Shown piece after piece: positions 16,001-43,000 of a stretch of 64,000 nucleotides of DNA (positions are counted from its first letter, which is position 1; every line of letters begins with the position of its first letter). Under the pieces are notes generated by a model. That model was not told the DNA's origin, searched no databases, and saw only the letters and a program-made list of their open reading frames with translations. Source of the stretch: Arenicola marina (taxonomy: Eukaryota; Annelida; Polychaeta; Arenicolidae); the NCBI GenBank assembly GCA_964019135.1, contig OZ025257.1:29495260-29559259 (forward strand), in the 5' to 3' direction. The position numbers and the translations under genes were made by a program.

Positions 16001-19000
16001 TATGTTTTATCATAAACCGCCATTGCGTCGCGTCTGCAGGCGTCCCAACGAGCGGGTCGCCGGCGTGTCGTTATGACGGAGGAGATTTAAAGGGTCTTTA
16101 GTGAAAACGTCACGAAGAGCCGAAGTATTGACGGAGGTGATCTAAAGGGTCATTAGTGAAAACGTTACGTAGAGCGGCAGTATTGACCGATGTTATTTAA
16201 AGGGTCATCGGCAAAACGTGACGTAGAGCGGAAGTATTGATCGATGTGATTTAAAGGGTCATCGGTGAAAACGTCACTTAGAGCGGAAGTATTGACCGAT
16301 GTGATTTAAGGGGACATCGGTGAAAACGTCACGTAGAGCGGAAATATTGATCGATGTGATTTAAAGGGTCATCGGTGAAAACGTTACGTAGAGCGGAAGT
16401 ATTGACCGGTGTGGTCTAAAGGGACATCGGTGAAAACGTCACGTAGAGCGGAAGTATTGACCGATGTGATTTAACGGTCATCGGTGAAAACGTCATGTAG
16501 AGCGGAAGTATTGACCGATGTGATTTAAGGGTCATCGGTGAAAACGTCACGAAGAGCCGAAGTATTGACGGAGGTGATCTAAAGGGTCATTAGTGAAAAC
16601 GTTACGTAGAGCGGCAGTATTGACCGATGTTATTTAAAGGGTCATCGGCAAAACGTGACGTAGAGCGGAAGTATTGATCGATGTGATTTAAAGGGTCATC
16701 GGTGAAAACGTCACGAAGAGCCGAAGTATTGACCGAAGTGATTTAAAGGGTCATCGGTGAAAACGTCACGTAGAGCGGAAGTATTGACCGATGTGATTTA
16801 AAGGGACATCGGTGAAAACGTCACGTAGAGCGGAAGTATTGATCGATGTGATTTAAAGGGACATCGGTGAAAACGTCACGTAGAGCGGAAATATTGATCG
16901 ATGTGATTTAAAGGGTCATCGGTGAAAACGTCACGTAGAGCGGAAATATTGATCGATGTGATTTAAAGGGTCACTGGTGAAGACGTTAGAGCGGAATGGT
17001 CGTTAATGAGTCGAACAACTTACCCGTGACGTCATCCCCTGACTTGGCGGGCGGGATATTGACGGGCTGCGAGACCTCGGCGCTGACGTCCCGGCCGGGC
17101 TGCGGTGAGAGGGTGGCGTCGGGCGGGCCGTGGGGGAGGCTCTCGGGTTGGGAGGCGCTCTGCCGAATGCTGTCCGAGTCGGTACTGCGTGCGGCTGTCA
17201 TGACGAGACCAGCGTCATCCCCCTCTCCGGCTTGCTCATTCACCTCCTCACCACACAACTGGCGGGGCGGAAAACAAATAGCCAACATTTTGTTTACTAA
17301 GGAAAACAAGGGTGCGTGGGACAACAGAAAGGTTATTTCACGAATGGGTGTTCGGATGGCTGATAACCGACTACAACAAGTGATTGATGTTAATTACCTT
17401 GGCTTTCAACCATGACGTAATAAAATAAAGGACATGGTAACAATCTGAACGGTGGATTCACATGAACTGTGGTTATTGTACATCACAGGTACGCGACACT
17501 TCCATCACTGCCATTTGACTGTTACACACTTGAATGTGTCCACCGGTGGTTGGGTCCGTCATACATCGTTCAAATCATTACCACGCCATGTATTATCAAT
17601 ATGTCGTGTTTAAAAGCCATCCGTCCTACTTACATACTAAATATATCCCATTGTCCATTTCTCCTGTTTGACCGAAAAAATCAACCTTGATTAACCCCAA
17701 GAAAATAGCACGAAAAGTATTATACCTGAAACATATAGACATACCTTGAGTAGCTGTGGATCAATTTTCCAAAGACGTAAGCTTTGATCTTTTGACCAAG
17801 TAACTAATTCATAATCTGAAGACAAAATTTAATGTGAAACATCATTATAGCAACCCAGCAGGGGCGGAATGTTAACCAAGACAGTCACGTAGATATAAAA
17901 TGGTGACAATATTTTGCGGCCGAAACGCCCCCTGGTTTGAATCGCTCGGGCGCCCTAACCAAGACCCATTGAGGATACCTGAGATCCAAAGCACGATATT
18001 ACACAAGGATAGCTGTAGTCGCTTGGACAGCAAAGACCAAAAACAAAATGGAAATTGCAAACCTTTAAACATTAAACTACTTAAACAACTTCAACCAAGT
18101 GACCGGTTTATTAATCAGGAAAAAAATCTACCAATTCTCCTCAATTTACAAACCCAGCATAGCAATATACTGGGGTGACAGCAGGGGTAATTATCATGAA
18201 GGGGTGACAAGGAACAGCCACATGTGGTCTGCTGACCTTCCCCTTGGCGGCGCCACTGAAACTCGAGCACGACGTCTTGGTGTCCCATGAAGGTGTGGAT
18301 GGGTTGTCGCAGGTCGTTTAGGTGCCACAGGAAGAGGTTGTACTCCCCTCGCCGCAGCTGGGGCACCATAACCGTGGTCAGACTCTTTCCGAAGGGCTTC
18401 AGGGAGAAAACAATCTATCAAGTTGCATTTATGGTCCCAATATCGGATGTTCTTTTACGCATATTGTCTTGGATTCGCGGGAATGATCTTAAAAATAAAC
18501 AGACGGGTGGTAACTAAGGGCGTGTTCGGTTTACCTGAACCCGACGGGAAACCGAAATCGTTTTTGAAACCCGTTTCAACGGTTTCCCATATAAAGGCGA
18601 ACGCATAGTTCCATTTGTTTACAGTTTCAGATTGTATTTTGGCAATGGCCATGTGCTTATGAAGTTATGCCAGCATAAATATGCCGTCTGTTTCATTTTA
18701 ATTAACTATGGTGTATGTGTTGAGCTCTCTCGATAGTTTCACTGTTTCGAGGAAACCGGTTTCGGTTCTTCTCCTGTCGAACAGTCAGTTCGGCAAACCG
18801 GTTTTGGTTTCATGTTAATCGAACGCCCTAAGTAAAGTTTACCGTGGAACAGATACACGGGTTAAATACATCTAGGACGAGAGAGTATATGGCCGCCTCG
18901 GTCAACTGACCAATCAGCAGGCAGTGTGGTAGACCCCTTAAACCCTTGAACACTCCCTTAACGGTGTTATATTAGCAATCCTTAGGTGCTTCCGAGGAGA

Positions 19001-22000
19001 GCATGGGATTATCTATGTACAGTACAGACTACAGTACAGACAGGGGAAGGGGCGGAATGAGCCGCTTCATGTATTACCGTATAGCGGGCCTTCCACACTG
19101 ACTACAGTACAGACAGGGGAAGGGGCGGGATGAGTCGCTTCATGTATTACCGTATAGCGGGCCTTCCACACAGACTACAGTACAGACAGGGAAAGGGGCG
19201 GGATGAGCCGCTTCATGTATTACCGTATAGCGGGCCTTCCACACAGACTACAGTACAGACAGCGGAAGGGGCGGGATGAGCCGCTTCATGTATTACCGTA
19301 TAGCGGGCCTTCCACACCGACTACAGTACAGACAGGGGAAGGGGCGGGATGAGCCGCTTCATGTATTACCGTATAGCGGGCCTTCCACACAGACTACAGT
19401 ACAGACAGGGGAAGGGGCGAGATGAGCCGCTTCATGTATTACCGTATAGCGGGCCTTCCACACAGACTACAGTACAGACAGGGCGTGATGAGCCGCTTCA
19501 TGTATTACCGTATAGCGGGCCTTCCACACCGACTACAGTACAGACAGGGGAAGGGGCGGGATGAGCCGCTTCATGTATTACCGTATAGCGGGCCTTCCAC
19601 ACAGACTACAGTACAGACAGGGGAAGGGGCGGGATGAGCCGCTTCATGTATTATCGTATAGCGGGCCTTCCACACAGACTACAGTACAGACAGGGGAAGG
19701 GGCGGGATGAGCCGCTTCATGTATTACCGTATAGCGGGCCTTCCACACAGACTACAGTACAGACAGGGGAAGGGGCGGGATGAGCCGCTTCATGTATTAC
19801 CGTATAGCGGGCCTTCCACACAGACTACAGTACAGACAGCGGAAGGGGCGGGATGAGCCGCTTCATATATTACCGTATAGCGGGCCTTCCACACAGACTA
19901 CAGTACAGACAGGGGAAGGGGCGGGATGAGCCGCTTCATGTATTACCGTATAGCGGGCCTTCCACACAGACTACAGTACAGACAGGGGAAGGGGCGGGAT
20001 GAGCCGCTTCATGTATTACCGTATAGCGGGCCTTCCACACAGACTACAGTACAGACAGCGGAAGGGGCGGGATGAGCCGCTTCATGTATTACCGTTTAGC
20101 GGGCCTTCCACACAGACTACAGTACAGACAGCGGAAGGGGCGGGATGAGCCGCTTCATGTATTACCGTATAGCGGGCCTTCCACACAGACTACAGTAGAG
20201 ACAGCGGAAGGGGCGGGATGAGCCGCTTCATGTATTACCGTATAGCGGGCCTTCCACACAGACTACAGTACAGGCAGGGGAAGGGGCGGGATGAGCCGCT
20301 TCATGTATTACCGTATAGCGGGCCTTCCACACAGACTAGAGTACAGACAGGGGAAGGGGCGGGATGAGCCGCTTCATGTATTACCGTATAGCGGGCCTTC
20401 CACACAGACTACAGTACAGACAGCGGAAGGGGCGGGATGAGCCGCTTCATGTATTACCGTATAGCGGGCCTTCCACACCGACTACAGTACAGACAGGGGA
20501 AGGGGCGGGATGAGCCGCTTCATGTATTACCGTATAGCGGGCCTTCCACACAGACTACAGTACAGACAGGGGAAGGGGCGGGATGAGCCGCTTCATGTAT
20601 TACCGTATAGCGGGCCGTCCACACAGACTACAGTACAGACAGGGGAAGGGGCGAGATGAGCCGCTTCATGTATTACCGTATAGCGGGCCTTCCACACAGA
20701 CTACAGTACAGACAGGGCGTGATGAGCCGCTTCATGTATTACCGTATAGCGGGCCTTCCACACCGACTACAGTACAGACAGGGGAAGGGGCGGGATGAGC
20801 CGCTTCATGTATTACCGTATAGCGGGCCTTCCACACAGACTACAGTACAGACAGGGGAAGGGGCGGGATGAGCCGCTTCATGTATTATCGTATAGCGGGC
20901 CTTCCACACAGACTACAGTACAGACAGGGGAAGGGGCGGGATGAGCCGCTTCATGTATTACCGTATAGCGGGCCTTCCACACAGACTACAGTACAGACAG
21001 GGGAAGGGGCGGGATGAGCCGCTTCATGTATTACCGTATAGCGGGCCTTCCACACAGACTACAGTACAGACAGGGGAAGGGGCGGGATGAGCCGCTTCAT
21101 ATATTACCGTATAGCGGGCCTTCCACACAGACTACAGTACAGACAGGGGAAGGGGCGGGATGAGCCGCTTCATGTATTACCGTATAGCGGGCCTTCCACA
21201 CAGACTACAGTACAGACAGGGGAAGGGGCGGGATGAGCCGCTTCATGTATTACCGTATAGCGGGCCTTCCACACAGACTACAGTACAGACAGCGGAAGGG
21301 GCGGGATGAGCCGCTTCATGTATTACCGTTTAGCGGGCCTTCCACACAGACTACAGTACAGACAGCGGAAGGGGCGGGATGAGCCGCTTCATGTATTACC
21401 GTATAGCGGGCCTTCCACACAGACTACAGTACAGACAGCGGAAGGGGCGGGATGAGCCGCTTCATGTATTACCGTATAGCGGGCCTTCCACACAGACTAC
21501 AGTACAGACAGGGGAAGGGGCGGGATGAGCCGCTTCATGTATTACCGTATAGCGGGCCTTCCACACAGACTACAGTACAGGCAGGGGAAGGGGCGGGATG
21601 AGCCGCTTCATGTATTACCGTATAGCGGGCCTTCCACACAGACTAGAGTACAGACAGGGGAAGGGGCGGGATGAGCCGCTTCATGTATTACCGTATAGCG
21701 GGCCTTCCACACAGACTACAGTACAGACAGGGGAAGGGGCGAGATGAGCCGCTTCATGTATTACCGTATAGCGGGCCTTCCACACAGACTACAGTACAGA
21801 CAGGAGAAGGGGCGGGATGAGCCGCTTCATGTATTACCGTATAGCGGGCCTTCCACACAGACTACAGTACAGACAGGGGAAGGGGCGAGATGAGCCGCTT
21901 CATGTATTGCCGTATAGCGGGCCTTCCACACAGACTACAGTACAGATAGGAGAAGGGGCGGGATGAGCCGCTTCATGTATTACCGTATAGCGGGCCTTCC

Positions 22001-25000
22001 ACACAGACTACAGTACAGACAGGAGAAGGGGCGGGATGAGCCGCTTCATGTATTACCGTATAGCGGGCCTTCCACACAGACTACAGTACAGACAGGAGAA
22101 GGGGCGGGATGAGCCGCTTCATGTATTACCGTATAGCGGGCCTTCCACACAGACTACAGTACAGACAGCGGAAGGGGCGGGATGAGCCGCTTCATGTATT
22201 ACCGTATAGCGGGCCTTCCACACAGACTACAGTACAGACAGCGGAAGGGGCGGGATGAGCCGCTTCATGTATTACCGTATAGCGGGCCTTCCACACAGAC
22301 TACAGTACAGACAGGGGAAGGGGCGGGATGAGCCGCTTCATGTATTGCCGTATAGCGGGCCTTCCACACAGACTACAGTACAGACAGGGGAAGGGGCGGG
22401 ATGAGCCGCTTCATGTATTACCGTATAGCGGGCCTTGCACACAGACTACAGTACAGACAGGGGAAGGGGCGAGATGAGCCGCTTTATGTATTACCGTATA
22501 GCGGGCCTTCCACACAGACTACAGTACAGACAGGGGAAGGGGCGGGATGGGCCGCTTCATGTATTACCGTATAGCGGGCTATCCACACAGACTACAGTAC
22601 AGACAGGGGAAGGGGCGGGATGAGCCGCTTCATGTATTACCGTATAGCGGGCCTTCCACACAGACTACAGTACAGACAGGGGAAGGGGCGGGATGGGCCG
22701 CTTCATGTATTACCGTATAGCGGGCCTTCCACACAGCTAGACTACAGTACAGACAGGGGAAGGGGCGGGATGAGCCGCTTCATGTATTACCGTATAGCGG
22801 GCCTTCCACACAGACTACAGTACAGACAGCGGAAGGGGCGGGATGAGCCGCTTCATGTATTACCGTATAGCGGGCCTTCCACACCGACTACAGTACAGAC
22901 AGGGGAAGGGGCGGGATGAGCCGCTTCATGTATTACCGTATAGCGGGCCTTCCACACAGACTACAGTACAGACAGGGGAAGGGGCGGGATGAGCCGCTTC
23001 ATGTATTACCGTATAGCGGGCCTTCCACACAGACTACAGTACAGACAGCGGAAGGGGCGGGATGAGCCGCTTCATGTATTACCGTATAGCGGGCCTTCCA
23101 CACCGACTACAGTACAGACAGGGGAAGGGGCGGGATGAGCCGCTTCATGTATTACCGTATAGCGGGCCTTCCACACAGACTACAGTACAGACAGGGGAAG
23201 GGGCGGGATGAGTCGCTTCATGTATTACCGTATAGCGGGCCTTCCACACAGACTACAGTACAGACAGCGGAAGGGGCGGGATGAGCCGCTTCATGTATTA
23301 CCGTATAGCGGGCCTTCCACACCGACTACAGTACAGACAGGGGAAGGGGCGGGATGAGCCGCTTCATGTATTACCGTATAGCGGGCCTTCCACACAGACT
23401 ACAGTAGAGACAGGGGAAGGGGCGGGATGAGCCGCTTCATGTATTACCGTATAGCGGGCCTTCCACACAGACTACAGTACAGACAGGGGAAGGGGCGGGA
23501 TGAGCCGCTTCATGTATTACCGTATAGAGGGCCTTCCACACAGACTACAGTACAGACAGGGGAAGGGGCGGGATGAGCCGCTTCATGTATTACCGTATAG
23601 CGGGCCTTGCACACAGACTACAGTACAGACAGGGGAAGGGGCGAGATGAGCCGCTTCATGTATTACCAGATAGCGGGCCTTCCACACATACTACAGTACA
23701 GACAGGGGAAGGGGCGGGATGAGCCGCTTCATGTATTACCGTATAGCGGGCCTTCTACACAGACTACAGTAAAGACAGGGGAAGGGGCGGGATGAGCCGC
23801 TTCATGTATTACCGTATAGCGGGCCTTCCACACAGACTACAGTACAGACAGCGGAAGGGGCGGGATGAGCCGCTTCATGTATTACCGTATAGAGGGCCTT
23901 CCACACAGACTACAGTACAGAATGGGGAAGGGGCGGGATGAGCCGCTTCATGTATTACCGTATAGCGGGCCTTCCACACAGACTAGAGTACAGACAGGGG
24001 AAGGGGCGGGATGAGCCGCTTCATGTATTACCGTATAGCGGGCCTTCCACACAGACTACAGTACAGACAGGGGAAGGGGCGGGATGAGCCCCTTCATGTA
24101 TTACCGTATAGCGGGCCTTCCACACAGACTACAGTACAGACAGGGGAAGGGGCGGGATGAGCCGCTTCATGTATTACCGTATAGCGGGCCTTCCACACAG
24201 ACTACAGTACAGATAGGGGAAGGGGCGGGATGGGCCGCTTCATGTATTACCGTATAGCGGGCTATCCACACAGACTACAGTACAGACAGGGGAAGGGGCG
24301 GGATGAGCCGCTTCATGTATTACCGTATAGCGGGCCTTCCACACAGACTACAGTACAGACAGAGGAAGGGGCGGGATGGGCCGCTTCATGTATTACCGTG
24401 TAGCGGGCTATCCACACAGACTACAGTACAGACAGCGGAAGGGGCGGGATGAGCCGCTTCATGTATTACCGTATAGCGGGCCTTACACACCGACTACGGT
24501 ACAGACAGGGAAAGGGGCGGGATGAGCCGCTTCATGTATTACCGTATAGCGGGCCTTCCACACAGACTACAGTACAGACAGCGGAAGGGGCGGGATGAGC
24601 CGCTTCATGTATTACCGCATAGCGGGCCTTCCACACCGACTACAGTACAGACAGGGGAAGGGGCGGGATGAGCCGCTTCATGTATTACCGTATAGCGGGC
24701 CTTCCACACAGACTACAGTACAGACAGGGGAAGGGGCGGGATGAGCCGCTTCATGTATTACCGTATAGCGGGCCTTCCACACAGACTACAGTACAGACAG
24801 GGGAAGGGGCGGGATGAGCCGCTTCATGTATTACCGTATAGCGGGCCTTCCACACCGACTACAGTACAGACAGGGGAAGGGGCGGGATGAGCCGCTTCAT
24901 GTATTATCGTATAGCGGGCCTTCCACACAGACTACAGTACAGACAGGGGAAGGGGCGGGATGAGCCGCTTCATGTATTACCGTATAGCGGGCCTTCCACA

Positions 25001-28000
25001 CAGACTACAGTACAGACAGGGGAAGGGGCGGGATGAGCCGCTTCATGTATTATCGTATAGCGGGCCTTCCACACAGACTACAGTACAGACAGCGGAAGGG
25101 GCGGGATGAGTCGCTTCATGTATTACCGTATAGCGGGCCTTCCACACAGACTACAGTACAGACAGGGGAAGGGGCGGGATGAGCCGCTTCATGTATTTCC
25201 GTATAGCGGGCCTTCCACACAGACTACAGTACAGACAGGGGAAGGGGCGGGATGAGCCGCTTCATGTATTACCGTATAGCGGGCCTTCCACACAGACTAC
25301 AGTACAGACAGCGGAAGGGGCGGGATGAGTCGCTTCATGTATTACCGTATAGCGGGCCTTCCACACAGACTACAGTACAGACAGGGGAAGGGGCGGGATG
25401 AGCCGCTTCATGTATTACCGTATAGCGGGCCTTCCACACAGACTACAGTACAGACAGGGGAAGGGGCGGGATGAGCCGCTTCATGTATTACCGTATAGCG
25501 GGCCTTCCACACAGACTACAGTACAGACAGGGCGTGATGAGCCGCTTCATGTATTACCGTATAGCGGGCCTTCCACACCGACTACAGTACAGACAGGGGA
25601 AGGGGCGGGATGAGCCGCTTCATGTATTACCGTATACCGGGCCTTCCACACAGACTACAGTACAGACAGGGGAAGGGGCGGGATGAGCCGCTTCATGTAT
25701 TATCGTATAGCGGGCCTTCCACACAGACTACCGTACAGACAGGGGAAGGGGCGGGATGAGCCGCTTCATGTATTACCGTATAGCGGGCCTTCCACACAGA
25801 CTACAGTACAGACAGGGGAAGGAGCGGGATGAGCCGCTTCATGTATTACCGTATAGCGGGCCTTCCACACAGACTACAGTACAGACAGCGGAAGGGGCGG
25901 GATGAGCCGCTTCATGTATTACCGTATAGCGGGCCTTCCACACAGACTACAGTACAGACAGGGGAAGGGGCGGGATGAGCCGCTTCATGTATTATCGTAT
26001 AGCGGGCCTTCCACACAGACTACAGTACAGACAGGGGAAGGGGCGGGATGAGCCGCTTCGTGTATTACCGTATAGCGGGCCTTCCACACAGACTACAGTA
26101 CAGACAGCGGAAGGGGCGGGATGAGCCGCTTCCTGTATTACCGTATAGCGGGCCTTCCACACAGACTACAGTACAGACAGCGGAAGGGGCGGGATGAGCC
26201 GCTTCATGTATTACCGTATAGCGGGCCTTCCACACAGACTACAGTACAGACAGCGGAAGGGGCGGGATGAGCCGCTTCATGTATTACCGTATAGCGGGCC
26301 TTCCACACAGACTACAGTACAGACAGGGGAAGGGGCGGGATGAGCCGCTTCATGTATTACCTTATAGCGGGCCTTCCACACAGACTACAGTACAGACAGC
26401 GGAAGGGGCGGGATGAGCCGCTTCATGTATTACCGTATAGCGGGCCTTCCACACAGACTACAGTACAGACAGGGGAAGGGGCGGGATGAGCCGCTTCATG
26501 TATTACCGTATAGCGGGCCTTCCACACAGACTACAGTACAGACAGCGGAAGGGGCGGGATGAGCCGCTTCATGTATTACCGTTTAGCGGGCCTTCCACAC
26601 AGACTACAGTACAGACAGCGGAAGGGGCGGGATGAGCCGCTTCATGTATTACCGTATAGCGGGCCTTCCACACAGACTACAGTACAGACAGCGGAAGGGG
26701 CGGGATGAGCCGCTTCATGTATTACCGTATAGCGGGCCTTCCACACAGACTACAGTACAGACAGGGGAAGGGGCGGGATGAGCCGCTTCATGTATTACCG
26801 TATAGCGGGCCTTCCACACAGACTACAGTACAGACAGCGGAAGGGGCGGGATGAGCCGCTTCATGTATTACCGTATAGCGGGCCTTCCACACAGACTACA
26901 GTACAGACAGCGGAAGGGGCGGGATGAGCCGCTTCATGTATTACCGTATAGCGGGCCTTCCACACAGACTACAGTACAGACAGCGGAAGGGGCGGGATGA
27001 GCCGCTTCATGTATTACCGTATAGCGGGCCTTCCACACAGACTACAGTACAGACAGCGGAAGGGGCGGGATGAGCCGCTTCATGTATTACCGTATAGCGG
27101 GCCTTCCACACAGACTACAGTACAGACAGGGGAAGGGGCGGGATGAGCCGCTTCATGTATTACCGTATAGCGGGCCTTCCACACAGACTACAGTACAGAC
27201 AGCGGAAGGGGCGGGATGAGCCGCTTCATGTATTACCGTATAGCGGGCCTTCCACACAGACTACAGTACAGACAGGGGAAGGGGCGGGATGAGCCGCTTC
27301 ATGTATTACCGTATAGCGGGCCTTCCACACAGACTACAGTACAGACAGGGGAAGGGGCGGGATGAGCCGCTTCATGTATTACCGTATAGCGGGCCTTCCA
27401 CACAGACTACAGTACAGACAGGGGAAGGGGCGGGATGAGCCGCTTCATGTATTACCGTATAGCGGGCCTTCCACACAGACTACAGTACAGACAGGGGAAG
27501 GGGCGGAATGAGCCGCTTCATGTATTACCGTATAGCGGGCCTTCCACACAGACTACAGTACAGACAGGGGAAGGGGCGGGATGAGCCGCTTCATGTATTA
27601 CCGTATAGCGGGCCTTCCACACAGACTACAGTACAGACAGCGGAAGGGGCGGGATGAGCCGCTTCATGTATTACCGTATAGAGGGCCTTCCACACAGACT
27701 ACAGTACAGACAGGGGAAGGGGCGGGATGAGCCGCTTCATGTATTACCGTATAGCGGGCCTTCCACACAGACTACAGTACAGACAGCGGAAGGGGCGGGA
27801 TGAGTCGCTTCATGTATTACCGTATAGCGGGCCTTCCACACAGACTACAGTACAGACAGGGGAAGGGGCGGGATGAGCCGCTTCATGTATTACCGTATAG
27901 CGGGCCTTCCACACAGACTACAGTACAGACAGGGGAAGGGGCGGGATGAGCCGCTTCATGTATTACCGTATAGCGGGCCTTCCACACAGACTACAGTACA

Positions 28001-31000
28001 GACAGGGGAAAGGGCGGGATGAGCCGCTTCATGTATTACCGTATAGCGGGCCTTCCACACAGACTACAGTACAGACAGGGGAAGGGGCGGGATGAGCCGC
28101 TTCATGTATTACCGTATAGCGGGCCTTCCACACAGACTACAGTACAGACAGGGGAAGGGGCGGGATGAGCCGCTTCATGTATTACCGTATAGCGGGCCTT
28201 CCACACAGACTACAGTACAGTCAGGGGAAGGGGCGGGATGAGCCGCTTCATGTATTACCGTATAGCGGGCCTTCCACACCGACTACAGTACAGACAGGGG
28301 AAGGGGCGGGATGAGCCGCTTCATGTATTATCGTATAGCGGGCCTTCCACACAGACTACAGTACAGACAGGGGAAGGGGCGGGATGAGCCGCTTCATGTA
28401 TTACCGTATAGCGGGCCTTCCACACAGACTACAGTACAGACAGGGGAAGGGGCGGGATGAGCCGCTTCATGTATTATCGTATAGCGGGCCTTCCACACAG
28501 ACTACAGTACAGACAGCGGAAGGGGCGGGATGAGTCGCTTCATGTATTACCGTATAGCGGGCCTTCCACACAGACTACAGTACAGACAGGGGAAGGGGCG
28601 GGATGAGCCGCTTCATGTATTACCGTATAGCGGGCCTTCCACACAGACTACAGTACAGACAGGGGAAGGGGCGGGATGAGCCGCTTCATGTATTACCGTA
28701 TAGCGGGCCTTCCACACAGACTACAGTACAGACAGGGGAAGGGGCGGGATGAGTCGCTTCATGTATTACCGTATAGCGGGCCTTCCACACAGACTACAGT
28801 ACAGACAGGGGAAGGGGCGGGATGAGCCGCTTCATGTATTACCGTATAGCGGGCCTTCCACACAGACTACAGTACAGACAGGGGAAGGGGCGGGATGAGC
28901 CGCTTCATGTATTACCGTATAGCGGGCCTTCCACACAGACTACAGTACAGACAGGGCGTGATGAGCCGCTTCATGTATTACCGTATAGCGGGCCTTCCAC
29001 ACCGACTACAGTACAGACAGGGGAAGGGGCGGGATGAGCCGCTTCATGTATTACCGTATACCGGGCCTTCCACACAGACTACAGTACAGACAGGGGAAGG
29101 GGCGGGATGAGCCGCTTCATGTATTATCGTATAGCGGGCCTTCCACACAGACTACAGTACAGACAGGGGAAGGGGCGGGATGAGCCGCTTCATGTATTAC
29201 CGTATAGCGGGCCTTCCACACAGACTACAGTACAGACAGGGGAAGGAGCGGGATGAGCCGCTTCATGTATTACCGTATAGCGGGCCTTCCACACAGACTA
29301 CAGTACAGACAGCGGAAGGGGCGGGATGAGCCGCTTCATGTATTACCGTATAGCGGGCCTTCCACACAGACTACAGTACAGACAGGGGAAGGGGCGGGAT
29401 GAGCCGCTTCATGTATTATCGTATAGCGGGCCTTCCACACAGACTACAGTACAGACAGGGGAAGGGGCGGGATGAGCCGCTTCATGTATTACCGTATAGC
29501 GGGCCTTCCACACAGACTACAGTACAGACAGCGGAAGGGGCGGGATGAGCCGCTTCCTGTATTACCGTATAGCGGGCCTTCCACACAGACTACAGTACAG
29601 ACAGCGGAAGGGGCGGGATGAGCCGCTTCATGTATTACCGTATAGCGGGCCTTCCACACAGACTACAGTACAGACAGCGGAAGGGGCGGGATGAGCCGCT
29701 TCATGTATTACCGTATAGCGGGCCTTCCACACAGACTACATTACAGACAGGGGAAGGGGCGGGATGAGCCGCTTCATGTATTACCTTATAGCGGGCCTTC
29801 CACACAGACTACAGTACAGACAGCGGAAGGGGCGGGATGAGCCGCTTCATGTATTACCGTATAGCGGGCCTTCCACACAGACTACAGTACAGACAGGGGA
29901 AGGGGCGGGATGAGCCGCTTCATGTATTACCGTATAGCGGGCCTTCCACACAGACTACAGTACAGACAGCGGAAGGGGCGGGATGAGCCGCTTCATGTAT
30001 TACCGTTTAGCGGGCCTTCCACACAGACTACAGTACAGACAGCGGAAGGGGCGGGATGAGCCGCTTCATGTATTACCGTATAGCGGGCCTTCCACACAGA
30101 CTACAGTACAGACAGCGGAAGGGGCGGGATGAGCCGCTTCATGTATTACCGTATAGCGGGCCTTCCACACAGACTACAGTACAGACAGGGGAAGGGGCGG
30201 GATGAGCCGCTTCATGTATTACCGTATAGCGGGCCTTCCACACAGACTACAGTACAAACAGCGGAAGGGGCGGGATGAGCCGCTTCATGTATTACCGTAT
30301 AGCGGGCCTTCCACACAGACTACAGTACAGACAGCGGAAGGGGCGGGATGAGCCGCTTCATGTATTACCGTATAGCGGGCCTTCCACACAGACTACAGTA
30401 CAGACAGCGGAAGGGGCGGGATGAGCCGCTTCATGTATTACCGTATAGCGGGCCTTCCACACAGACTACAGTACAGACAGCGGAAGGGGCGGGATGAGCC
30501 GCTTCATGTATTACCGTATAGCGGGCCTTCCACACAGACTACAGTACAGACAGGGGAAGGGGCGGGATGAGCCGCTTCATGTATTACCGTATAGCGGGCC
30601 TTCCACACAGACTACAGTACAGACAGCGGAAGGGGCGGGATGAGCCGCTTCATGTATTACCGTATAGCGGGCCTTCCACACAGACTACAGTACAGACAGG
30701 GGAAGGGGCGGGATGAGCCGCTTCATGTATTACCGTATAGCGGGCCTTCCACACAGACTACAGTACAGACAGGGGAAGGGGCGGGATGAGCCGCTTCATG
30801 TATTACCGTATAGCGGGCCTTCCACACAGACTACAGTACAGACAGGGGAAGGGGCGGGATGAGCCGCTTCATGTATTACCGTATAGCGGGCCTTCCACAC
30901 AGACTACAGTACAGACAGGGGAAGGGGCGGAATGAGCCGCTTCATGTATTACCGTATAGCGGGCCTTCCACACAGACTACAGTACAGACAGGGGAAGGGG

Positions 31001-34000
31001 CGGGATGAGCCGCTTCATGTATTACCGTATAGCGGGCCTTCCACACAGACTACAGTACAGACAGCGGAAGGGGCGGGATGAGCCGCTTCATGTATTACCG
31101 TATAGAGGGCCTTCCACACAGACTACAGTACAGACAGGGGAAGGGGCGGGATGAGCCGCTTCATGTATTACCGTATAGCGGGCCTTCCACACAGACTACA
31201 GTACAGACAGCGGAAGGGGCGGGATGAGTCGCTTCATGTATTACCGTATAGCGGGCCTTCCACACAGACTACAGTACAGACAGGGGAAGGGGCGGGATGA
31301 GCCGCTTCATGTATTACCGTATAGCGGGCCTTCCACACAGACTACAGTACAGACAGGGGAAGGGGCGGGATGAGCCGCTTCATGTATTACCGTATAGCGG
31401 GCCTTCCACACAGACTACAGTACAGACAGGGGAAAGGGCGGGATGAGCCGCTTCATGTATTACCGTATAGCGGGCCTTCCACACAGACTACAGTACAGAC
31501 AGGGGAAGGGGCGGGATGAGCCGCTTCATGTATTACCGTATAGCGGGCCTTCCACACAGACTACAGTACAGACAGGGGAAGGGGCGGGATGAGCCGCTTC
31601 ATGTATTACCGTATAGCGGGCCTTCCACACAGACTACAGTACAGACAGCGGAAGGGGCGGGATGAGCCGCTTCATGTATTACCGTATAGCGGGCCTTCCA
31701 CACAGACTACAGTACAGACAGGGGAAGGGGCGGGATGAGCCGCTTCATGTATTACCGTATAGCGGGCCTTCCACACAGACTACAGTACAGACAGGGGAAG
31801 GGGCGGGATGAGCCGCTTCATGTATTACCGTATAGCGGGCCTTCCACACAGACTACAGTACAGACAGGGGAAGGGGCGGGATGAGCCGCTTCATGTATTA
31901 CCGTATAGCGGGCCTTCCACACAGACTACAGTACAGACAGCGGAAGGGGCGGGATGAGCCGCTTCATGTATTACCGTATAGCGGGCCTTCCACACAGACT
32001 ACAGTACAGACAGGGGAAGGGGCGGGATGAGCCGCTTCATGTATTACCGTATAGCGGGCCTTCCACACAGACTACAGTACAGACAGGGGAAGGGGCGGAA
32101 TGAGCCGCTTCATGTATTACCGTATAGCGGGCCTTCCACACAGACTACAGTACAGACAGGGGGAGGGGCGGAATGAGCCGCTTCATGTATTACCGTATAG
32201 CGGGCCTTCCACACAGACTACAGTACAGACAGGGGAAGGGGCGGGATGAGCCGCTTCATGTATTACCGTATAGCGGGCCTTCCACACAGACTACAGTACA
32301 GACAGGGGAAGGGGCGGAATGAGCCGCTTCATGTATTACCGTATAGCGGGCCTTCCACACAGACTACAGTACAGACAGCGGAAGGGGCGGGATGAGCCGC
32401 TTCATGTATTACCGTATAGCGGGCCTTCCACACAGACTACAGTACAGACAGCGGAAGGGGCGGGATGAGCCGCTTCATGTATTACCGTATAGCGGGCCTT
32501 CCACACAGACTACAGTACAGACAGCGGAAGGGGCGGAATGAGCCGCTTCATGTATTACCGTATAGCGGGCCTTCCACACAGACTACAGTACAGACAGGGG
32601 AAGGGGCGGGATGAGCCGCTTCATGTATTACCGTATAGCGGGCCTTCCACACAGACTACAGTACAGACAGGGGAAGGGGCGGGATGAGCCGCTTCATGTA
32701 TTACCGTATAGCGGGCCTTCCACACAGACTACAGTACAGACAGGGAAAGGGGCGGGATGAGCCGCTTCATGTATTACCGTATAGCGGGCCTTCCACACAG
32801 ACTACAGTACAGACAGGGGAAGGGGCGGAATGAGCCGCTTCATGTATTACCGTATAGCGGGCCTTCCACACAGACTACAGTACAGACAGCGGAAGGGGCG
32901 GGATGAGCCGCTTCATGTATTACCGTATAGCGGGCCTTCCACACAGACTACAGTACAGACAGCGGAAGGGGCGGGATGAGCCGCTTCATGTATTACCGTA
33001 TAGCGGGCCTTCCACACAGACTACAGTACAGACAGCGGAAGGGGCGGGATGAGCCGCTTCATGTATTACCGTATAGCGGGCCTTCCACACAGACTACAGT
33101 ACAGACAGGGGAAGGGGCGGAATGAGCCGCTTCATGTATTACCGTATAGCGGGCCTTCCACACAGACTACAGTACAGACAGGGGAAGGGGCGGGATGAGC
33201 CGCTTCATGTATTACCGTATAGCGGGCCTTCCACACAGACTACAGTACAGACAGGGAAAGGGGCGGGATGAGCCGCTTCATGTATTACCGTATAGCGGGC
33301 CTTCCACACAGACTACAGTACAGACAGGGAAAGGGGCGGGATGAGCCGCTTCATGTATTACCGTATAGCGGGCCTTCCACACAGACTACAGTACAGACAG
33401 GGGAAGGGGCGGAATGAGCCGCTTCATGTATTACCGTATAGCGGGCCTTCCACACAGACTACAGTACAGACAGCGGAAGGGGCGGGATGAGCCGCTTCAT
33501 GTATTACCGTATAGCGGGCCTTCCACACAGACTACAGTACAGACAGGGGAAGGGGCGGGATGAGCCGCTTCATGTATTACCGTATAGCGGGCCTTCCACA
33601 CAGACTACAGTACAGACAGGGGAAGGGGCGGAATGAGCCGCTTCATGTATTACCGTATAGCGGGCCTTCCACACAGACTACAGTACAGACAGGGAAAGGG
33701 GCGGGATGAGCCGCTTCATGTATTACCGTATAGCGGGCCTTCCACACAGACTACAGTACAGACAGGGGAAGGGGCGGGATGAGCCGCTTCATGTATTACC
33801 GTATAGCGGGCCTTCCACACAGACTACAGTACAGACAGGGAAAGGGGCGGGATGAGCCGCTTCATGTATTACCGTATAGCGGGCCTTCCACACAGACTAC
33901 AGTACAGACAGGGGAAGGGGCGGAATGAGCCGCTTCATGTATTACCGTATAGCGGGCCTTCCACACAGACTACAGTACAGACAGGGAAAGGGGCGGGATG

Positions 34001-37000
34001 AGCCGCTTCATGTATTACCGTATAGCGGGCCTTCCACACAGACTACAGTACAGACAGGGGAAGGGGCGGAATGAGCCGCTTCATGTATTACCGTATAGCG
34101 GGCCTTCCACACAGACTACAGTACAGACAGGGAAAGGGGCGGGATGAGCCGCTTCATGTATTACCGTATAGCGGGCCTTCCACACAGACTACAGTACAGA
34201 CAGGGGAAGGGGCGGAATGAGCCGCTTCATGTATTACCGTATAGCGGGCCTTCCACACAGACTACAGTACAGACAGGGAAAGGGGCGGGATGAGCCGCTT
34301 CATGTATTACCGTATAGCGGGCCTTCCACACAGACTACAGTACAGACAGGGGAAGGGGCGGAATGAGCCGCTTCATGTATTACCGTATAGCGGGCCTTCC
34401 ACACAGACTACAGTACAGACAGGGAAAGGGGCGGGATGAGCCGCTTCATGTATTACCGTATAGCGGGCCTTCCACACAGACTACAGTACAGACAGGGGAA
34501 GGGGCGGGATGAGCCGCTTCATGTATTACCGTATAGCGGGCCTTCCACACAGACTACAGTACAGACAGGGGAAGGGGCGGGATGAGCCGCTTCATGTATT
34601 ACCGTATAGCGGGCCTTCCACACAGACTACAGTACAGACAGCGGAAGGGGCGGGATGAGCCGCTTCATGTATTACCGTATAGCGGGCCTTCCACACAGAC
34701 TACAGTACAGACAGGGGAAGGGGCGGGATGAGCCGCTTCATGTATTACCGTATAGCGGACCTTCCACACAGACTACAGTACAGACAGGGAAAGGGGCGGG
34801 ATGAGCCGCTTCATGTATTACCGTATAGCGGGCCTTCCACACAGACTACAGTACAGACAGGGGAAGGGGCGGGATGAGCCGCTTCATGTATTACCGTATA
34901 GCGGGCCTTCCACACAGACTACAGTACAGACAGGGGAAGGGGCGGGATGAGCCGCTTCATGTATTACCGTATAGCGGGCCTTCCACACAGACTACAGTAC
35001 AGACAGGGGAAGGGGCGGGATGAGCCGCTTCATGTATTACCGTATAGCGGGCCTTCCACACAGACTACAGTACAGACAGGGGAAGGGGCGGGATGAGCCG
35101 CTTCATGTATTACCGTATAGCGGGCCTTCCACACGGGGGACGTGGAGGACAGCTTGCCTTCAGATTGCTTTGGCTTCGTCACATCCCAGAACTGAAAAAA
35201 GTCAATGTTGAGAATAGCTAGTCGATAGTCGTAATTAAATCAATGACCCGGGTTATCAGGTCGCGGCCCGGGCCCAGGTTAAACTAGGGTTGGGCCGGTT
35301 TGAAGTTAAACGCCGGAAAAAAAATCTCCAATCTCGAATTAAAATCGCTTGATGCTTTATATTTCTTGGGACTAATATTTCTAAGGCCCTACAAAATCAC
35401 TTGAAATGGTTAAGGAAGTGATTAACTATTAAAATATCACTTTTAAAATAAAAAACTTAAGTGTACGTTTCCTCAATAGTTTCTATTACTAACTCGCTCA
35501 TTGTATCGCACTGACACTACTGCCTACTAGCCTGGGGATACAAACGAAATCGACTGCCAAAGATACAGCAAAAAGCTAAACGTATCAGAAGGAGGAATTG
35601 GTCATTTTGATTTATGCACCTGAATCTCCTGACCATGAACATGAAGTTCAGGCGCTAAAGAGTTATTATAATCTGATGGATAATGAATGATGTCCCTGCA
35701 TAGTTCGTTAATAAGTTGCACTCTTGCGACAAACATAGCAATGAAAACCAGACAAAAACACTAAACAAATAGCCGCACACACACACACTTATTTAATGTT
35801 TGTGTCTCCTTGACCGGGGCCTTATTCAACCCTGGCACTTATTTAATGTTTGTGTCTCCTTGACCGGGGCCTTATTCAACCCTGGCACTTATTTAATGTT
35901 TGTGTCTCCTTGACCGGGGCCTTATTCAACCCGGGCACTTGTTTAATGTTTGTGTCTCCTTGACGGGGCCCTTATTCAAGCCGGGCACTTATTTAATGTG
36001 TGTGTCTCCTTGACCGGGGCCTTATTCAACCCGGGCACTTGTTTAATGTTTGTGTCTCCTTGACCGGGCCCTTATTCAACCCTGGCACTTATTTAATGTT
36101 TGTGTCTCCTTGACCGGGGCCCTTATTCAACCCTGGCACTTATTTAATGTTTGTGTCTCCTTGACGGGGCCCTTATTCAACCCTGGCACTTATTTAATGT
36201 TTGTGTCTCCTTGACCGGGGCCTTATTCAACCCGGGCACTTGTTTAATGTTTGTGTCTCCTTGACCGGGGCCTTATTCAAGACGGGCACTTATTTAATGT
36301 TTGTGTCTCCTTGACCGGGGCCTTATTCAAGCCGGGCACTTGTTTAATGTTTGTGTCTCCTTGACCGGGCCCTTATTCAACCCTGGCACTTGTTTAATGT
36401 TTGTGTCTCCTTGACCGGGCCCTTATTCAAGCCGGGCACTTATTTAATGTTTGTGTCTCCTTGACCGGGGCCTTATTCAACCCGGGCACTTGTTTAATGT
36501 TTGCGTCTCCTTGACCGGGCCCTTATTCAACCCTGGCACTTATTTAATGTTTGTGTCTCCTTGACCGGGGCCCTTAATCAACCCTGGCACTTATTTAATG
36601 TTTGTGTCTCTTTGACGGGGCCCTTATTCAACCCTGGCACTTATTTAATGTTTGTGTCTCCTTGACCGGGGCCTTATTCAACCCTGCAACTTATTTAATG
36701 TGTGTGTCTCCTTGACCGGGCCCTTATTCAACCCTGGCACTTATTTAATGTTTGTGTCTCCTTGACCGGGCCCTTATTCAACCCTGGCACTTATTTAATG
36801 TTTGTGTCTCCTTGACCGGGCCCTTATTCAAGCCGGGCACTTATTTAATGTTTGTGTCTCCTTGACCGGGGCCTTATTCAACCCGGGCACTTGTTTAATG
36901 TTTGTGTCTCCTTGACCGGGCCCTTATTCAACCCTGGCACTTGTTTAATGTTTGTCTCTCCTTGACCGGGCCCTTATTCAACCCTGGCACTTATTTAATG

Positions 37001-40000
37001 TTTGTGTCTCCTTGACCGGGGCCCTTATTCAACCCTGGCACTTATTTAATGTTTGTGTCTCCTTGACGGGGCCCTTATTCAACCCTGGCACTTATTTAAT
37101 GTTTGTGTCTCCTTGACGGGGCCCTTATTCAACCCTGGCACTTATTTAATGTTTGTGTCTCCTTGACCGGGCCCTTATTCAACCCTGGCACTTATTTAAT
37201 GTTTGTGTCTCCTTGACCGGGCCCTTATTCAACCCTGGCACTTATTTAATGTTTGTGTCTCCTTGACCGGGGCCTTATTCAACCCGGGCACTTATTTAAT
37301 GTTTGTGTCTCCTTGACGGGGCCCTTATTCAACCCTGGCACTTATCTAATGTTTGTGTCTCCTTGACCGGGGCCCAGGTTAATGTTTGTGTCTCCTTGAC
37401 CGGGCCCTTATTCAAGCCGGGCACTTATTTAATGTTTGTGTCTCCTTGACGGGGCCCTTATTCAACCCTGGCACTTATTTAATGTTTGTGTCTCCTTGAC
37501 GGGGCCCTTATTCAACCCTGGCACTTATTTAATGTGTGTGTCTCCTTGCCGGGGCCTTATTCAACCCTGGCACTTATTTAATTTTTGTGTCTCCTTGACC
37601 GGGGCCTTATTCAACCCGGGCACTTATTTAATGTTTGTGTCTCCGTGACCGGGGCCTTATTCAACCCTGGCACTTATTTAATGTTTGTGTCTCCTTGACG
37701 GGGCCCTTATTCAACCCTGGCACTTATTTAATGTGTGTGTCTCCTTGCCGGGGCCCTTATTCAAGCCGGGCACTTATTTAATGTTTGTGTCTCCTTGACC
37801 GGGCCCTTATTCAAGTCGGGCACTTATTTAATGTTTGTATCTCCTTGACCGGGCCCTTATTCAAGCCGGGCACTTATTTAATGTTTGTGTCTCCTTGACC
37901 GGGCCCTTATTCAAGCCGGGTACTTATTTAATGTTTGTGTCTCCTTGACCGGGCCCTTATTCAAGCCGGGCACTTATTTAATGTTTGTGTCTCCTTGACC
38001 GGGCCCTTATTCAAGCCGGGCACTTATTTAATGTTTGTGCCTCCTTGACCGGGCCCTTATTCAAGCCGGGCACTTATTTAATGTTTGTGTCTCCTTGACC
38101 GGGCCCTTATTCAAGCCGGGCACTTATTTAATGTTTGTGTCTCCTTGACCGGGCCCTTATTCAAGTCGGGCACTTATTTAATGTTTGTGTCTCCTTGACC
38201 GGGCCCTTATTCAAGCCGGGCACTTATTTAATGTTTGTGTCTCCTTGACCGGGCCCTTATTCAAGCCGGGCACTTATTTAATGTTTGTGTCTCCTTGACC
38301 GGGGCCTTATTCAACCCTGGCACTTATTTAATGTTTGTGTCTCCTTGACCGGGGCCTTATTCAACCCGAGCACTTATTTAATGTTTGTGTCTCCTTGACC
38401 GGGGCCTTATTCAACCCTGGCACTTATTTAATGTTTGTGTCTCCTTGACCGGGGCCTTATTCAACCCTGGCACTTATTTAATGTTTGTGTCTCCTTGACC
38501 GGGCCCTTATTCAACCCTGGCACTTATTTAATGTTTGTGTCTCCTTGACCGGGGCCTTATTCAACCCTGGCACTTATTTAATGTTTGTGTCTCCTTGACC
38601 GGGGCCTTATTCATCCCTGGCACTTATTTAATGTTTGTGTCTCCTTGACCGGGCCCTTATTCAAGCCGGGCACTTATTTAATGTTTGTGTCTCCTTGACC
38701 GGGGCCTTATTCAACCCTGGCACTTATTTAATGTTTGTGTCTCCTTGACCGGGGCCTTATTCAACCCTGGCACTTATTTAATGTTTGTGTCTCCTTGACC
38801 GGGGCCTTATTCAACCCTGGCACTTATTTAATGTTTGTGTCTCCTTGACCGGGGCCTTATTCAACTCTGGCACTTATTTAATGTTTGTGTCTCCTTGACG
38901 GGGCCCTTATTCAACCCTGGCACTTATTTAATGACCGGGCCCTTATTCAAGCCGGGCACTTATTTAATGTTTGTGTCTCCTTGACCGGGGCCTTATCCAA
39001 CCCTGGCACTTATTTAATGTTTGTGTCTCCTTGACCGGGGCCCTTATTCAACCCTGGCACTTATTTAATGTTTGTGTCTCCTTGACGGGGCCCTTATTCA
39101 ACCCTGGCACTTATTTAATGTTTGTGTCTCCTTGACCGGGGCCTTATTCAACCCGGGCACTTATTTAATGTTTGTGTCTCCTTGACCGGGGCCCTTATTC
39201 AACCCTGGCACTTATTTAATGTTTGTGTCTCCTTGACCGGGGCCTTATTCAAGCCGGGCACTTATTTAATGTTTGTGTCTCCTTGACCGGGGCCTTATCC
39301 AACCCTGGCACTTATTTAATGTTTGTGTCTCCTTGACCGGGGCCCTTATTCAACCCTGGCACTTATTTAATGTTTGTGTCTCCTTGACCGGGGCCTTATT
39401 CAACCCGGGCACTTATTTAATGTGTGTGTCTCCTTGACCGGGGCCTTATTCAACCCTGGCACTTATTTAATGTTTGTGTCTCCTTGACCGGGGCCTTATT
39501 CAACCCGGGACTTATTTAATGTTTGTGTCTCCTTGACCGGGGCCTTATTCAAGCCGGGCACTTATTTAATGTTTGTGTCTCCTTGACCGGGGCCTTATTC
39601 AAGCCGGGCACTTATTTAATGTTTGTGTCTCCTTGACCGGGGCCTTATTCAAGCCGGGCACTTATTTAATGTTTGTGTCTCCTTGACCGGGGCCTTATTC
39701 AACCCGGGCACTTATTTAATGTTTGTGTCTCCTTGACCGGGGCCTTATTCAACCCGGGCACTTATTTAATGTTTGTGTCTCCTTGACCGGGGCCTTATTC
39801 AACCCGGGCACTTATTTAATGTTTGTGTCTCTTGACCGGGGCCTTATTCAACCCGGGCACTTATTTAATGTTTGTGTCTCCTTGACCGGGGCCTTATTCA
39901 AGCCGGGCACTTATTTAATGTTTGTGTCTCCTTGACCGGGGCCTTATTCAACCCGGGCACTTATTTAATGTTTGTGTCTCCTTGACCGGGGCCTTATTCA

Positions 40001-43000
40001 ACCCGGGCACTTATTTAATGTTTGTGTCTCCTTGACCGGGGCCTTATTCAAGCCGGGCACTTATTTAATGTTTGTGTCTCCTTGACCGGGGCCTTATTCA
40101 ACCCGGGCACTTATTTAATGTTTGTGTCTCCTTGACCGGGCCCTTATCCAACCCGGGCACTTATTTAATGTTTGCGTCTCCTTGACCGGGGCCTTATTCA
40201 ACCCTGGCACTTATTTAATGTTTGTGTCTCCTTGACCGGGGCCTTATTCAACCCTGGCACTTATTTAATGTTTGTGTCTCCTTGACCGGGGCCTTATTCA
40301 ACCCTGGCACTTATTTAATGTTTGTGTCTCCTTGACCGGGGCCCTTATTCAACCCTGGCACCTATTTAATGTTTGTGTCTCCTTGACCGGGGCCTTATTC
40401 AACCCTGGCACTTATTTAATGTTTGTGTCTCCTTGACCGGGGCCTTATTCAACCCGGGCACTTATTTAATGTTTGTGTCTCCTTGACCGGGGCCCTTATT
40501 CAACCCTGGCACTTATTTAATGTTTGTGTCTCCTTGACCGGGCCCTTATTCAACCCTGGCACTTATTTAATGTTTGTGTCTCCTTGACCGGGGCCCTTAT
40601 TCAACCCTGGCACTTATTTAATGTTTGTGTCTCCTTGACCGGGGCCTTATCCAACCCGGGCACTTATTTAATGTTTGTGTCTCCTTGACCGGGGCCCTTA
40701 TTCAACCCTGGCACTTATTTAATGTTTGTGTCTCCTTGACCGGGGCCTTATCCAACCCGGGCACTTATTTAATGTTTGTGTCTCCTTGACCGGGGCCTTA
40801 TTCATCCCTGGCACTTATTTAATGTTTGTGTCTCCTTGACCGGGCCCTTATTCAAGCCGGGCACTTATTTAATGTTTGTGTCTCCTTGACCGGGGCCTTA
40901 TTCAACCCTGGCACTTATTTAATGTTTGTGTCTCCTTGACCGGGGCCTTATTCAACCCTGGCACTTATTTAATGTTTGTGTCTCCTTGACCGGGGCCTTA
41001 TTCAACCCTGGCACTTATTTAATGTTTGTGTCTCCTTGACCGGGGCCTTATTCAACTCTGGCACTTATTTAATGTTTGTGTCTCCTTGACGGGGCCCTTA
41101 TTCAACCCTGGCACTTATTTAATGACCGGGCCCTTATTCAAGCCGGGCACTTATTTAATGTTTGTGTCTCCTTGACCGGGGCCTTATCCAACCCTGGCAC
41201 TTATTTAATGTTTGTGTCTCCTTGACCGGGGCCCTTATTCAACCCTGGCACTTATTTAATGTTTGTGTCTCCTTGACGGGGCCCTTATTCAACCCTGGCA
41301 CTTATTTAATGTTTGTGTCTCCTTGACCGGGGCCTTATTCAACCCGGGCACTTATTTAATGTTTGTGTCTCCTTGACCGGGGCCCTTATTCAACCCTGGC
41401 ACTTATTTAATGTTTGTGTCTCCTTGACCGGGGCCTTATTCAAGCCGGGCACTTATTTAATGTTTGTGTCTCCTTGACCGGGGCCTTATCCAACCCTGGC
41501 ACTTATTTAATGTTTGTGTCTCCTTGACCGGGGCCCTTATTCAACCCTGGCACTTATTTAATGTTTGTGTCTCCTTGACCGGGGCCTTATTCAACCCGGG
41601 CACTTATTTAATGTTTGTGTCTCCTTGACCGGGGCCTTATTCAACCCTGGCACTTATTTAATGTTTGTGTCTCCTTGACCGGGGCCTTATTCAACCCGGG
41701 ACTTATTTAATGTTTGTGTCTCCTTGACCGGGGCCTTATTCAAGCCGGGCACTTATTTAATGTTTGTGTCTCCTTGACCGGGGCCTTATTCAAGCCGGGC
41801 ACTTATTTAATGTTTGTGTCTCCTTGACCGGGGCCTTATTCAAGCCGGGCACTTATTTAATGTTTGTGTCTCCTTGACCGGGGCCTTATTCAACCCGGGC
41901 ACTTATTTAATGTTTGTGTCTCCTTGACCGGGGCCTTATTCAACCCGGGCACTTATTTAATGTTTGTGTCTCCTTGACCGGGGCCTTATTCAACCCGGGC
42001 ACTTATTTAATGTTTGTGTCTCCTTGACCGGGGCCTTATTCAACCCGGGCACTTATTTAATGTTTGTGTCTCCTTGACCGGGGCCTTATTCAAGCCGGGC
42101 ACTTATTTAATGTTTGTGTCTCCTTGACCGGGGCCTTATTCAACCCGGGCACTTATTTAATGTTTGTGTCTCCTTGACCGGGGCCTTATTCAACCCTGGC
42201 ACTTATTTAATGTTTGTGTCTCCTTGACCGGGGCCTTATTCAACCCGGGCACTTATTTAATGTTTGTGTCTCCTTGACCGGGGCCTTATTCAAGCCGGGC
42301 ACTTATTTAATGTTTGTGTCTCCTTGACCGGGGCCTTATTCAACCCGGGGACTTATTTAATGTTTGTGTCTCCTTAACCGGGCCCTTATCCAACCCGGGC
42401 ACTTATTTAATGTTTGCGTCTCCTTGACCGGGGCCTTATTCAACCCTGGCACTTATTTAATGTTTGTGTCTCCTTGACCGGGGCCTTATTCAACCCTGGC
42501 ACTTATTTAATGTTTGTGTCTCCTTGACCGGGGCCTTATTCAACCCTGGCACTTATTTAATGTTTGTGTCTCCTTGACCGGGGCCCTTATTCAACCCTGG
42601 CACCTATTTAATGTTTGTGTCTCCTTGACCGGGGCCTTATTCAACCCTGGCACTTATTTAATGTTTGTGTCTCCTTGACCGGGGCCTTATTCAACCCGGG
42701 CACTTATTTAATGTTTGTGTCTCCTTGACCGGGGCCCTTATTCAACCCTGGCACTTATTTAATGTTTGTGTCTCCTTGACCGGGCCCTTATTCAACCCTG
42801 GCACTTATTTAATGTTTGTGTCTCCTTGACCGGGGCCCTTATTCAACCCTGGCACTTATTTAATGTTTGTGTCTCCTTGACCGGGGCCTTATCCAACCCG
42901 GGCACTTATTTAATGTTTGTGTCTCCTTGACCGGGGCCCTTATTCAACCCTGGCACTTATTTAATGTTTGTGTCTCCTTGACCGGGGCCTTATTCAACCC

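Follow-up and report, generated by a model that had tools for sequence, protein, structure and literature searches.

A minisatellite of about 220 copies of an exon end and its splice donor in an intron of WDR59 of Arenicola marina, and kindred arrays in other genes

Minisatellites that span exon/intron borders are known from amphioxus, where they are called mirages and are described, in the available text of two papers, for Adh3, the globins BflGb6 and BflGb9, TnC, and PGBD5 (PMC3087553, PMC3902484). Their units measure 10-72 bp in Adh3 and 150-160 bp in the globins, haplotypes of BflGb6 carry 6 and 3 units, and regular mRNAs are reported for Adh3 and the globins despite the mirages (same partial texts; PMC3087553, PMC3902484). 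Here we describe a related array in the gene WDR59 of the annelid Arenicola marina, found in a window of 64 kb (OZ025257.1; C10:29495260-29559259 of an 867-Mb assembly with 762 contigs). Positions without a locus label are those of the window, and WDR59 lies on its minus strand. The array arose from the junction between WDR59 exon 9 and its donor, and the exon copy is its first unit.

As in the mirages, so far as the available text describes them, the WDR59 repeat spans an exon/intron border with the exon end as its first copy, and many units keep splice signals (GT in 207 of 220 units, AG in all 215 full units). It differs from those descriptions in its units (here 25-122 bp), in copy number (up to 220), in the involvement of several genes, and in its annelid host, which by the WDR59 tree is no cephalochordate. 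On the mirage trait of homogenised inner units with the array edges left out, the WDR59 exon 9 copy equals the consensus and units farther in vary more than the first twenty; the exon copy of the WDR59 exon 21 array differs from its commonest unit. In segmentally duplicated human genes, internal tandem repeats at exon-intron boundaries (on average 30 bp x 4) are described, in the portion of the paper available, together with recent paralogues and intron gain (PMC2812944). These too are minisatellite units at exon borders and they affect splicing, but the WDR59 intron has a separate real acceptor beyond its array. These 627 bp of unique intron with their own acceptor argue against intron gain by tandem duplication (Rogers model). 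The earthworm metallothionein gene carries two exon-4 duplications, one of them inverted, and intron-1 minisatellites; it is likewise an annelid gene, its transcript lacks the exon copies and one of its introns holds large repeats, but the accessible part of the paper does not call the intron repeats exon-derived (PMC12783039). The gigantic introns of the Drosophila Y are similar in that long arrays lie in introns of working genes, but they consist of satellite DNA, and exon-derived copies are unmentioned in the portion available (PMC6508621). Apart from the earthworm paper, we noticed no annelid arrays of this type at this scale or copy number among the papers listed in a literature search, a partial list. 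The class is thus known from the amphioxus mirages, and what is new is the copy number, the breadth across genes, and the host.

Tandem Repeats Finder (TRF) returned a single array of 221 copies with 97% matches, which a unit parse resolved into 220 units (215 of 73 bp, four of 66 bp and an irregular one of 150 bp). There are 54 distinct unit sequences, and 66 units, the exon copy included, equal the consensus. Each unit consists of 21 exonic and 52 intronic nt, and the first overlaps exon 9 by its 21 nt (35134-35114). Exon 9 (35191-35114) encodes FWDVTKPKQSEGKLSSTSPVWKARYT and ends in ...CCCGTGTGGAAGGCCCGCTATACG, followed by the donor gtaatac; the exact donor ACGGTAATA occurs 204 times. An earlier sequence-only reading of the window had stated that the unit opens with the 21-nt VWKARYT end of the WDR59 exon at 35114-35191 and continues into its donor, that about 220 copies lie in one intron, and that most keep an intact GT. 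The alignment and the motif in homologues confirm the first of these statements, the TRF and parse counts the second, and the count over parsed units the third. The extent it gave (19020..35191) needs a small correction, since the array itself stops at 19024, with intron sequence running on to 18397. The boundary minisatellites of amphioxus that it mentioned do exist and are the mirages (PMC3087553, PMC3902484).

The joined exon peptides match human WDR59 (7uhy_D) with an E value of 2.5e-88. We placed 20 exons in the window and four in the neighbouring 10 kb (L021), 24 in total, with uncertain borders for exons 13, 17, and 19. Exon 9 was aligned to human residues 218-243 (E 0.22, weak alone). 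Of 120 homologues, 116 carry a VWKARYT-type motif (exactly PVWKARYT in 85), and in 115 of these 116 it is directly followed by P[FYLV]. This continuity fixes the donor at 35114 and the exon 9-exon 10 joint in phase 0. In a tree of the window's WDR59 with 25 homologues, the gene pairs with Capitella (98/93) inside Spiralia (100/99), and Branchiostoma falls among the chordates. The protein of B. floridae shows 49% identity over 80% of the query, and those of annelids, nemerteans, and a brachiopod 53-56%; Branchiostoma as the host of the array was rejected on this lower identity and its chordate placement. The features are collected in Table 1.

Table 1. Features of the WDR59 locus and of junction arrays at other loci. 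Positions without a locus label refer to the window.
Feature	Position	Strand	Description	Basis
73-bp array	19024..35134	minus	about 220 units, each with 21 nt of exon end, the donor, the start of the intron, and an acceptor-like tract	TRF + unit parse
WDR59 exon 9	35114..35191	minus	last 21 nt (35134-35114) = first repeat copy	protein match, AG/GT borders
True 5' splice site, exon 9	35108..35113	minus	ACG/GTAATA	weight-table score 4.5
First acceptor-like tract copy	35065..35085	minus	CTTCCCCTGTCTGTACTGTAG	weight-table score 7.1
Unique intron remainder	18397..19023	minus	627 bp, contains real acceptor ccctgaag
Exon 10	18237..18396	minus	starts PFGKSL, PFGKSLTTVMVPQ...; its acceptor closes the 16.7-kb intron
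50-bp array	35786..51474	minus	preceding intron, 15.7 kb	unit matched none of 20 window exons
Exon 8 donor duplication (third)	51672..51735	minus	25 bp x 2.6, only 5 exonic nt	TRF
Exon 3 tail/donor duplication (second)	55244..55422	minus	77 bp x 2.3, 33/40 identity across junction	TRF
Exon 21 array	L021:3378-6510 (C10, left of window)		tail GGGACCAGCACTACAGAAACACGAG + 10-14 intronic nt, 35-39 bp x 84
TRPM 41-bp array	L022:4371-10000 + L023:1-1348		x 169, ~7 kb; 29 exonic + 12 intronic nt	GT 167/169
TRPM 43-bp array			x 53; 38 exonic + 5 intronic nt	GT 46/53
TRPM 122-bp and 71-bp arrays			both begin in an exon tail; 122 bp x 3, 71 bp x 8
WASH7 donor array	exon L002:9727		70 bp x 14; inside original random stretch	GT 14/14
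WASH7 second donor array	after exon L026:4747		41 bp x ~8	GT 6/8

The unit joints read TAGTCT-GT-GTGG, the intron beyond the array TAGTCT-GT-ACTG, and the exon CCCCC-GT-GTGG, with 2 bp shared. Judging from these joints, 73 bp across the exon 9/intron junction were copied by a local tandem duplication between sites sharing 2 bp, and unequal exchange together with block duplication would then have grown the array to 16 kb. The block is directly visible, as units 96-142 repeat units 49-95, with 40 of the 47 units equal and 7 differing. A 47-unit block recurring with private differences indicates real growth and argues against a simple assembly duplication, and it suggests that the array length may be unstable. 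Variation is higher away from the exon: units 1-20 carry 0.65 differences each on average, units 141-160 carry 1.65, and units 201-220 carry 1.00. There are 49 distinct changes, 15 of them in the 21 exonic and 34 in the 52 intronic positions, similar per position. The 15 exonic changes comprise 3 synonymous, 10 missense, and 2 stop changes (neutral expectation 24/68/8%), and changes of the GT within units are no rarer than changes elsewhere in the unit. Because exonic changes match neutral drift and the rates are similar, the inner copies are not visibly held as exons; they show no visible coding constraint and are passive cargo, probably tolerated by splicing.

Of the 24 WDR59 exons, five have an array across the 3' end (exons 3, 8, 9, and 21 and the last exon), and none has one across its start. 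The array of exon 21 fills nearly the whole intron, keeps GT in 75 of 84 copies, and has an exon copy that differs from the commonest unit. By eye, a 45-bp x 22 array (L021:1356-2366) starts in the last coding exon and holds the frame end and stop codon, and the C-terminal residues CVTGDD of WDR59 appear to be supplied by this 45-bp repeat. When 13 array units of the window were compared with its 20 exons, convincing exon matches were obtained only for the 73-, 25-, and 77-bp units. A 13-bp unit gave an 11-base match (E 0.044) that we took as chance, and the other nine had no match at E 0.05.

Turning to the rest of the genome, we drew a random sample of twenty 10-kb stretches (L001-L020, from C1-C10 at 5 and 15 Mb). 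Tandem arrays (period 10 or more, 3 copies or more) make up 39% of these 200 kb, and four of the 20 stretches are array from end to end. We therefore reject array size as the surprise that the sequence-only reading had seen in it; 16 kb is ordinary in this genome, and what was copied is notable. Open frames of the 20 stretches were ranked by codon use, frames with 30% or more array overlap were excluded, and ten were sent to Pfam. Eight matched, namely seven short exons (CLC, four TRPM, C2, and WASH7) and one long frame (L018), and two did not. Compared with their own loci, three of ten short exons (the seven matched and three unmatched) showed copies of an exon edge, at the acceptor side of CLC, at the donor of TRPM exon a, and at the acceptor of TRPM exon d. 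At TRPM exon d, the acceptor and exon head are copied several times upstream (L008:7898-8889); by eye, the copies carry a donor-like GGCAG/GTATAA and an in-frame TGA, resembling poison mini-exons.

In the extended TRPM locus we detected four donor arrays (Table 1) and, as a further donor case, a 47-bp set of three copies. The joined TRPM exons align through the array joints with solved TRPM channels (E 1e-64). Ten further TRPM and CLC frames were sent to Pfam, of which six matched (two Ion_trans matches below the curated cut-off) and four did not; the TRPM alignment takes in two of these four. We chose WASH7 for extension on the ground that no edge copies had been seen at its first exon, and it yielded two donor arrays, the first of which (L002:9727) had been overlooked owing to the array-overlap filter. 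A WD40 sample took 16 of 150 listed matches, mostly from the top of the list with two skipped, and comprised 15 exons at 13 loci (13 of 20 chosen loci covered). Here donor arrays were found at L036 (5 copies, GT 5/5) and L038 (7 copies, GT 6/7), and none were counted at the other WD40 exons of the sample apart from an acceptor-side case at L035. At L035:987-1276 (minus orientation), a 96-bp x 3 array lies on the acceptor side, and both upstream copies read CAT for CAG, possibly through selection against upstream decoy acceptors (n = 2). Acceptor capture was rejected at L026 9227, at L034, and for a 41-bp array at L035, which abut the exon with exonic sequence absent from the units or too short; the array that follows L026 exon 8582 and those of L031 and L040 begin in the intron and were rejected as junction arrays. 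Donors with copies thus number 4/23 in WDR59, 5/12 in TRPM, 2/9 in WASH7, 0/3 in CLC, 0/1 in C2, and 2/15 in the WD40 sample. With the same structure present again in the same gene and in other genes, the 73-bp array is not a single oddity, and we infer that splicing in this genome would have to cope with many decoys.

Donors appear to be crossed more often than expected. For WDR59, TRPM, WASH7, and CLC (48 exons, 45 arrays), the null model collapsed the arrays and let every array start from a segment of one unit length at a random position in the gene. Arrays cross 10 of 47 donors against 2.34 expected (P 1.7e-4; P 7.3e-4 without the index array) and one of 44 acceptors against 2.23 expected, no significant lack (P 0.35); the donor versus acceptor comparison gives a one-sided binomial P of 0.006. 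Merged arrays were given one period each (WASH7 283 instead of 70), which raised the expectation. The CLC acceptor copy and the donor copies of TRPM exon a are uncounted in the test, not being TRF arrays across an edge.

In other genes, too, arrays would be born more at exon 3' ends than at exon starts, likely from GC-rich seeds at exon edges. GC content is 0.57 in exons, 0.41 in introns under 4 kb, and 0.56 in the 73-bp array; as exons are GC-richer than short introns and the array keeps this GC, exon edges may be good seeds. Donor copies are likely better tolerated than acceptor copies, which place decoys upstream of the true site, and this may be why few are seen. A broader proposal is that in this annelid 5' splice junctions are the preferred birthplace of minisatellites and that such copying is a main route of intron growth, with a large share of genes carrying tens to hundreds of copies of their own donor and splicing buffered against them; we put this forward tentatively and rather doubt it. 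That these junctions are an active hot spot of array birth, for example through transcription- or splicing-coupled breakage, and not mere sites of survival, we consider unlikely. Donor crossings are about fourfold above the random-founder null and acceptor crossings are not above it, as a hot spot would have it, but survival bias and GC-rich seeds can produce the same pattern, and three acceptor-side cases exist. If donors do seed arrays oftener than acceptors, the bias could be measured and would reflect either selection against decoy acceptors placed upstream or a mutational hot spot at the 5' junctions.

An acceptor-like site, a pyrimidine-rich tract closed by TAG, is present in every full-length unit as well. 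The sequence-only reading had rightly recognised an array born at a junction and had left this AG unreported. With a score of 7.1, the site outranks five of the 16 real WDR59 acceptors scored, and among 1199 AGs outside the arrays it falls within the top 5.3%. A unit can therefore be read as a 24-nt mini-exon (TCTGTGTGGAAGGCCCGCTATACG, SVWKARYT) and a 49-nt intron, in phase 0 on both sides. Both AG and GT are intact in 206 of 219 mini-exons, SVWKARYT is in frame in 198, and five contain stops. AG is kept in all 215 full units and GT is lost in 13 of them; this suggests chance, as two positions each are a weak basis and no change at two positions is not rare. The frameshift and stop that had been predicted for readthrough hold in part. 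Readthrough past the exon 9 donor does meet a stop, 81 nt downstream in the second unit, but with an acceptor-like site in each full unit and a mini-exon of 24 nt in phase 0, wrong splicing need not shift the frame. Missplicing into the array could thus be in frame (mini-exon) or out of frame (readthrough).

Taken together, we consider it quite probable that the WDR59 array is a mirage-type minisatellite that was born across the junction, grew by duplication, drifts, and is probably spliced out whole, and that the same process acts in other genes. The intron would be removed in one piece, from the first donor to the acceptor of exon 10. The first donor would probably win by exon definition, since no other copy has a real acceptor at a distance of one exon (78 nt) upstream. 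The inner copies would form units of 24 nt, which is little for exon definition, and an intron confined to one unit would measure only 49 nt, likewise a short length. Splicing from a decoy donor past the first unit puts a stop codon into the mRNA, most of which would then be lost to decay. In the TRPM arrays of 41, 43, and 71 bp, readthrough stops 22, 2, and 6 nt past the donor, so that the cost of such readthrough would be some lost mRNA. The locus then amounts to a natural experiment in splice-site choice, with one true donor against about 206 copies in one intron and repeated in other genes, and offers a visible route for the lengthening of introns, and for new exons if a copy is ever used.

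Several points weigh against this account. The exon 9 donor is weak (score 4.5, tied third-fourth lowest of the 17 WDR59 donors scored with a weight table), and it is therefore harder to believe that splicing picks it faithfully over about 206 decoys. When exon 9 was folded as RNA with 1, 3, or 6 units, true and decoy donors came out similarly accessible, so that the true donor is not set apart by structure. We infer the skipping of the array by splicing from genomic DNA, and use of the acceptor-like sites would equally give the retention of AG in 215 of 215 units with GT lost in 13. The donor excess comes from four genes that were not all chosen blind, WDR59 having been given and TRPM extended after hits. 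The exon lists behind it are partial (12 TRPM and 9 WASH7 exons used) and include two exons not firmly confirmed. The TRPM exon L008:6128 has no family match, and L026:4747, one of the two WASH7 donor cases, matched WASH-7_mid of Pfam weakly (E 0.059), in the right order, and nothing in the PDB. CLC, C2, and 13 of the 15 WD40 exons have no donor copies, and three cases lie on the acceptor side (TRPM exon d, CLC, and L035).

If instead the units act, the roughly 206 two-sited mini-exons would pair unproductively with the true splice sites and slow intron removal, and copy number would tune WDR59 output (decoy-exon intron detention). The intact AG and GT in 206 of 219 mini-exons, the in-frame SVWKARYT in 198 of 219, and a unit acceptor that scores like real ones would fit such a role. 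The unit sequence, however, is unconstrained beyond chance, and the TRPM units of 41 and 43 bp have only 12 or 5 intronic nt, leaving no room for a pyrimidine tract. Kindred arrays in unrelated genes without space for a tract make a role special to WDR59 unneeded, and we regard detention as very unlikely. Still less credible is the inclusion of some mini-exons, which would yield protein variants with extra SVWKARYT octapeptides. The length of 24 nt, a multiple of 3, and phase 0 on both sides would permit it, but the copies show the drift of non-coding DNA, 5 of the 219 containing stops, and the motif is doubled in none of the 120 homologues, 116 of which carry it.

Passive removal of a real array also fits better than a repeat inflated in the draft assembly, the least probable of these alternatives. 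The case for the array does rest on the assembly, but the 54 distinct units, the 47-unit block that recurs with differences in seven units, the 43-Mb length of contig C10, and the same architecture on C1, C4, C10, C11, and C18 speak against an artefact. A chance origin was rejected for a 97% identical 16-kb array that starts inside a coding exon.

Two other arrays of the window deserve mention. The 50-bp array of the intron preceding exon 9 (35786-51474), which served as an intronic array for comparison, shows higher-order periods of 100 and 150 bp. At 3412-6344 lies a 17-bp G-rich array (GGGAGGGGGTGG), with a GC skew of 0.83 at 4001-6000, that is a possible G-quadruplex former; the three minus-strand frames are open for 787 to 1024 codons.

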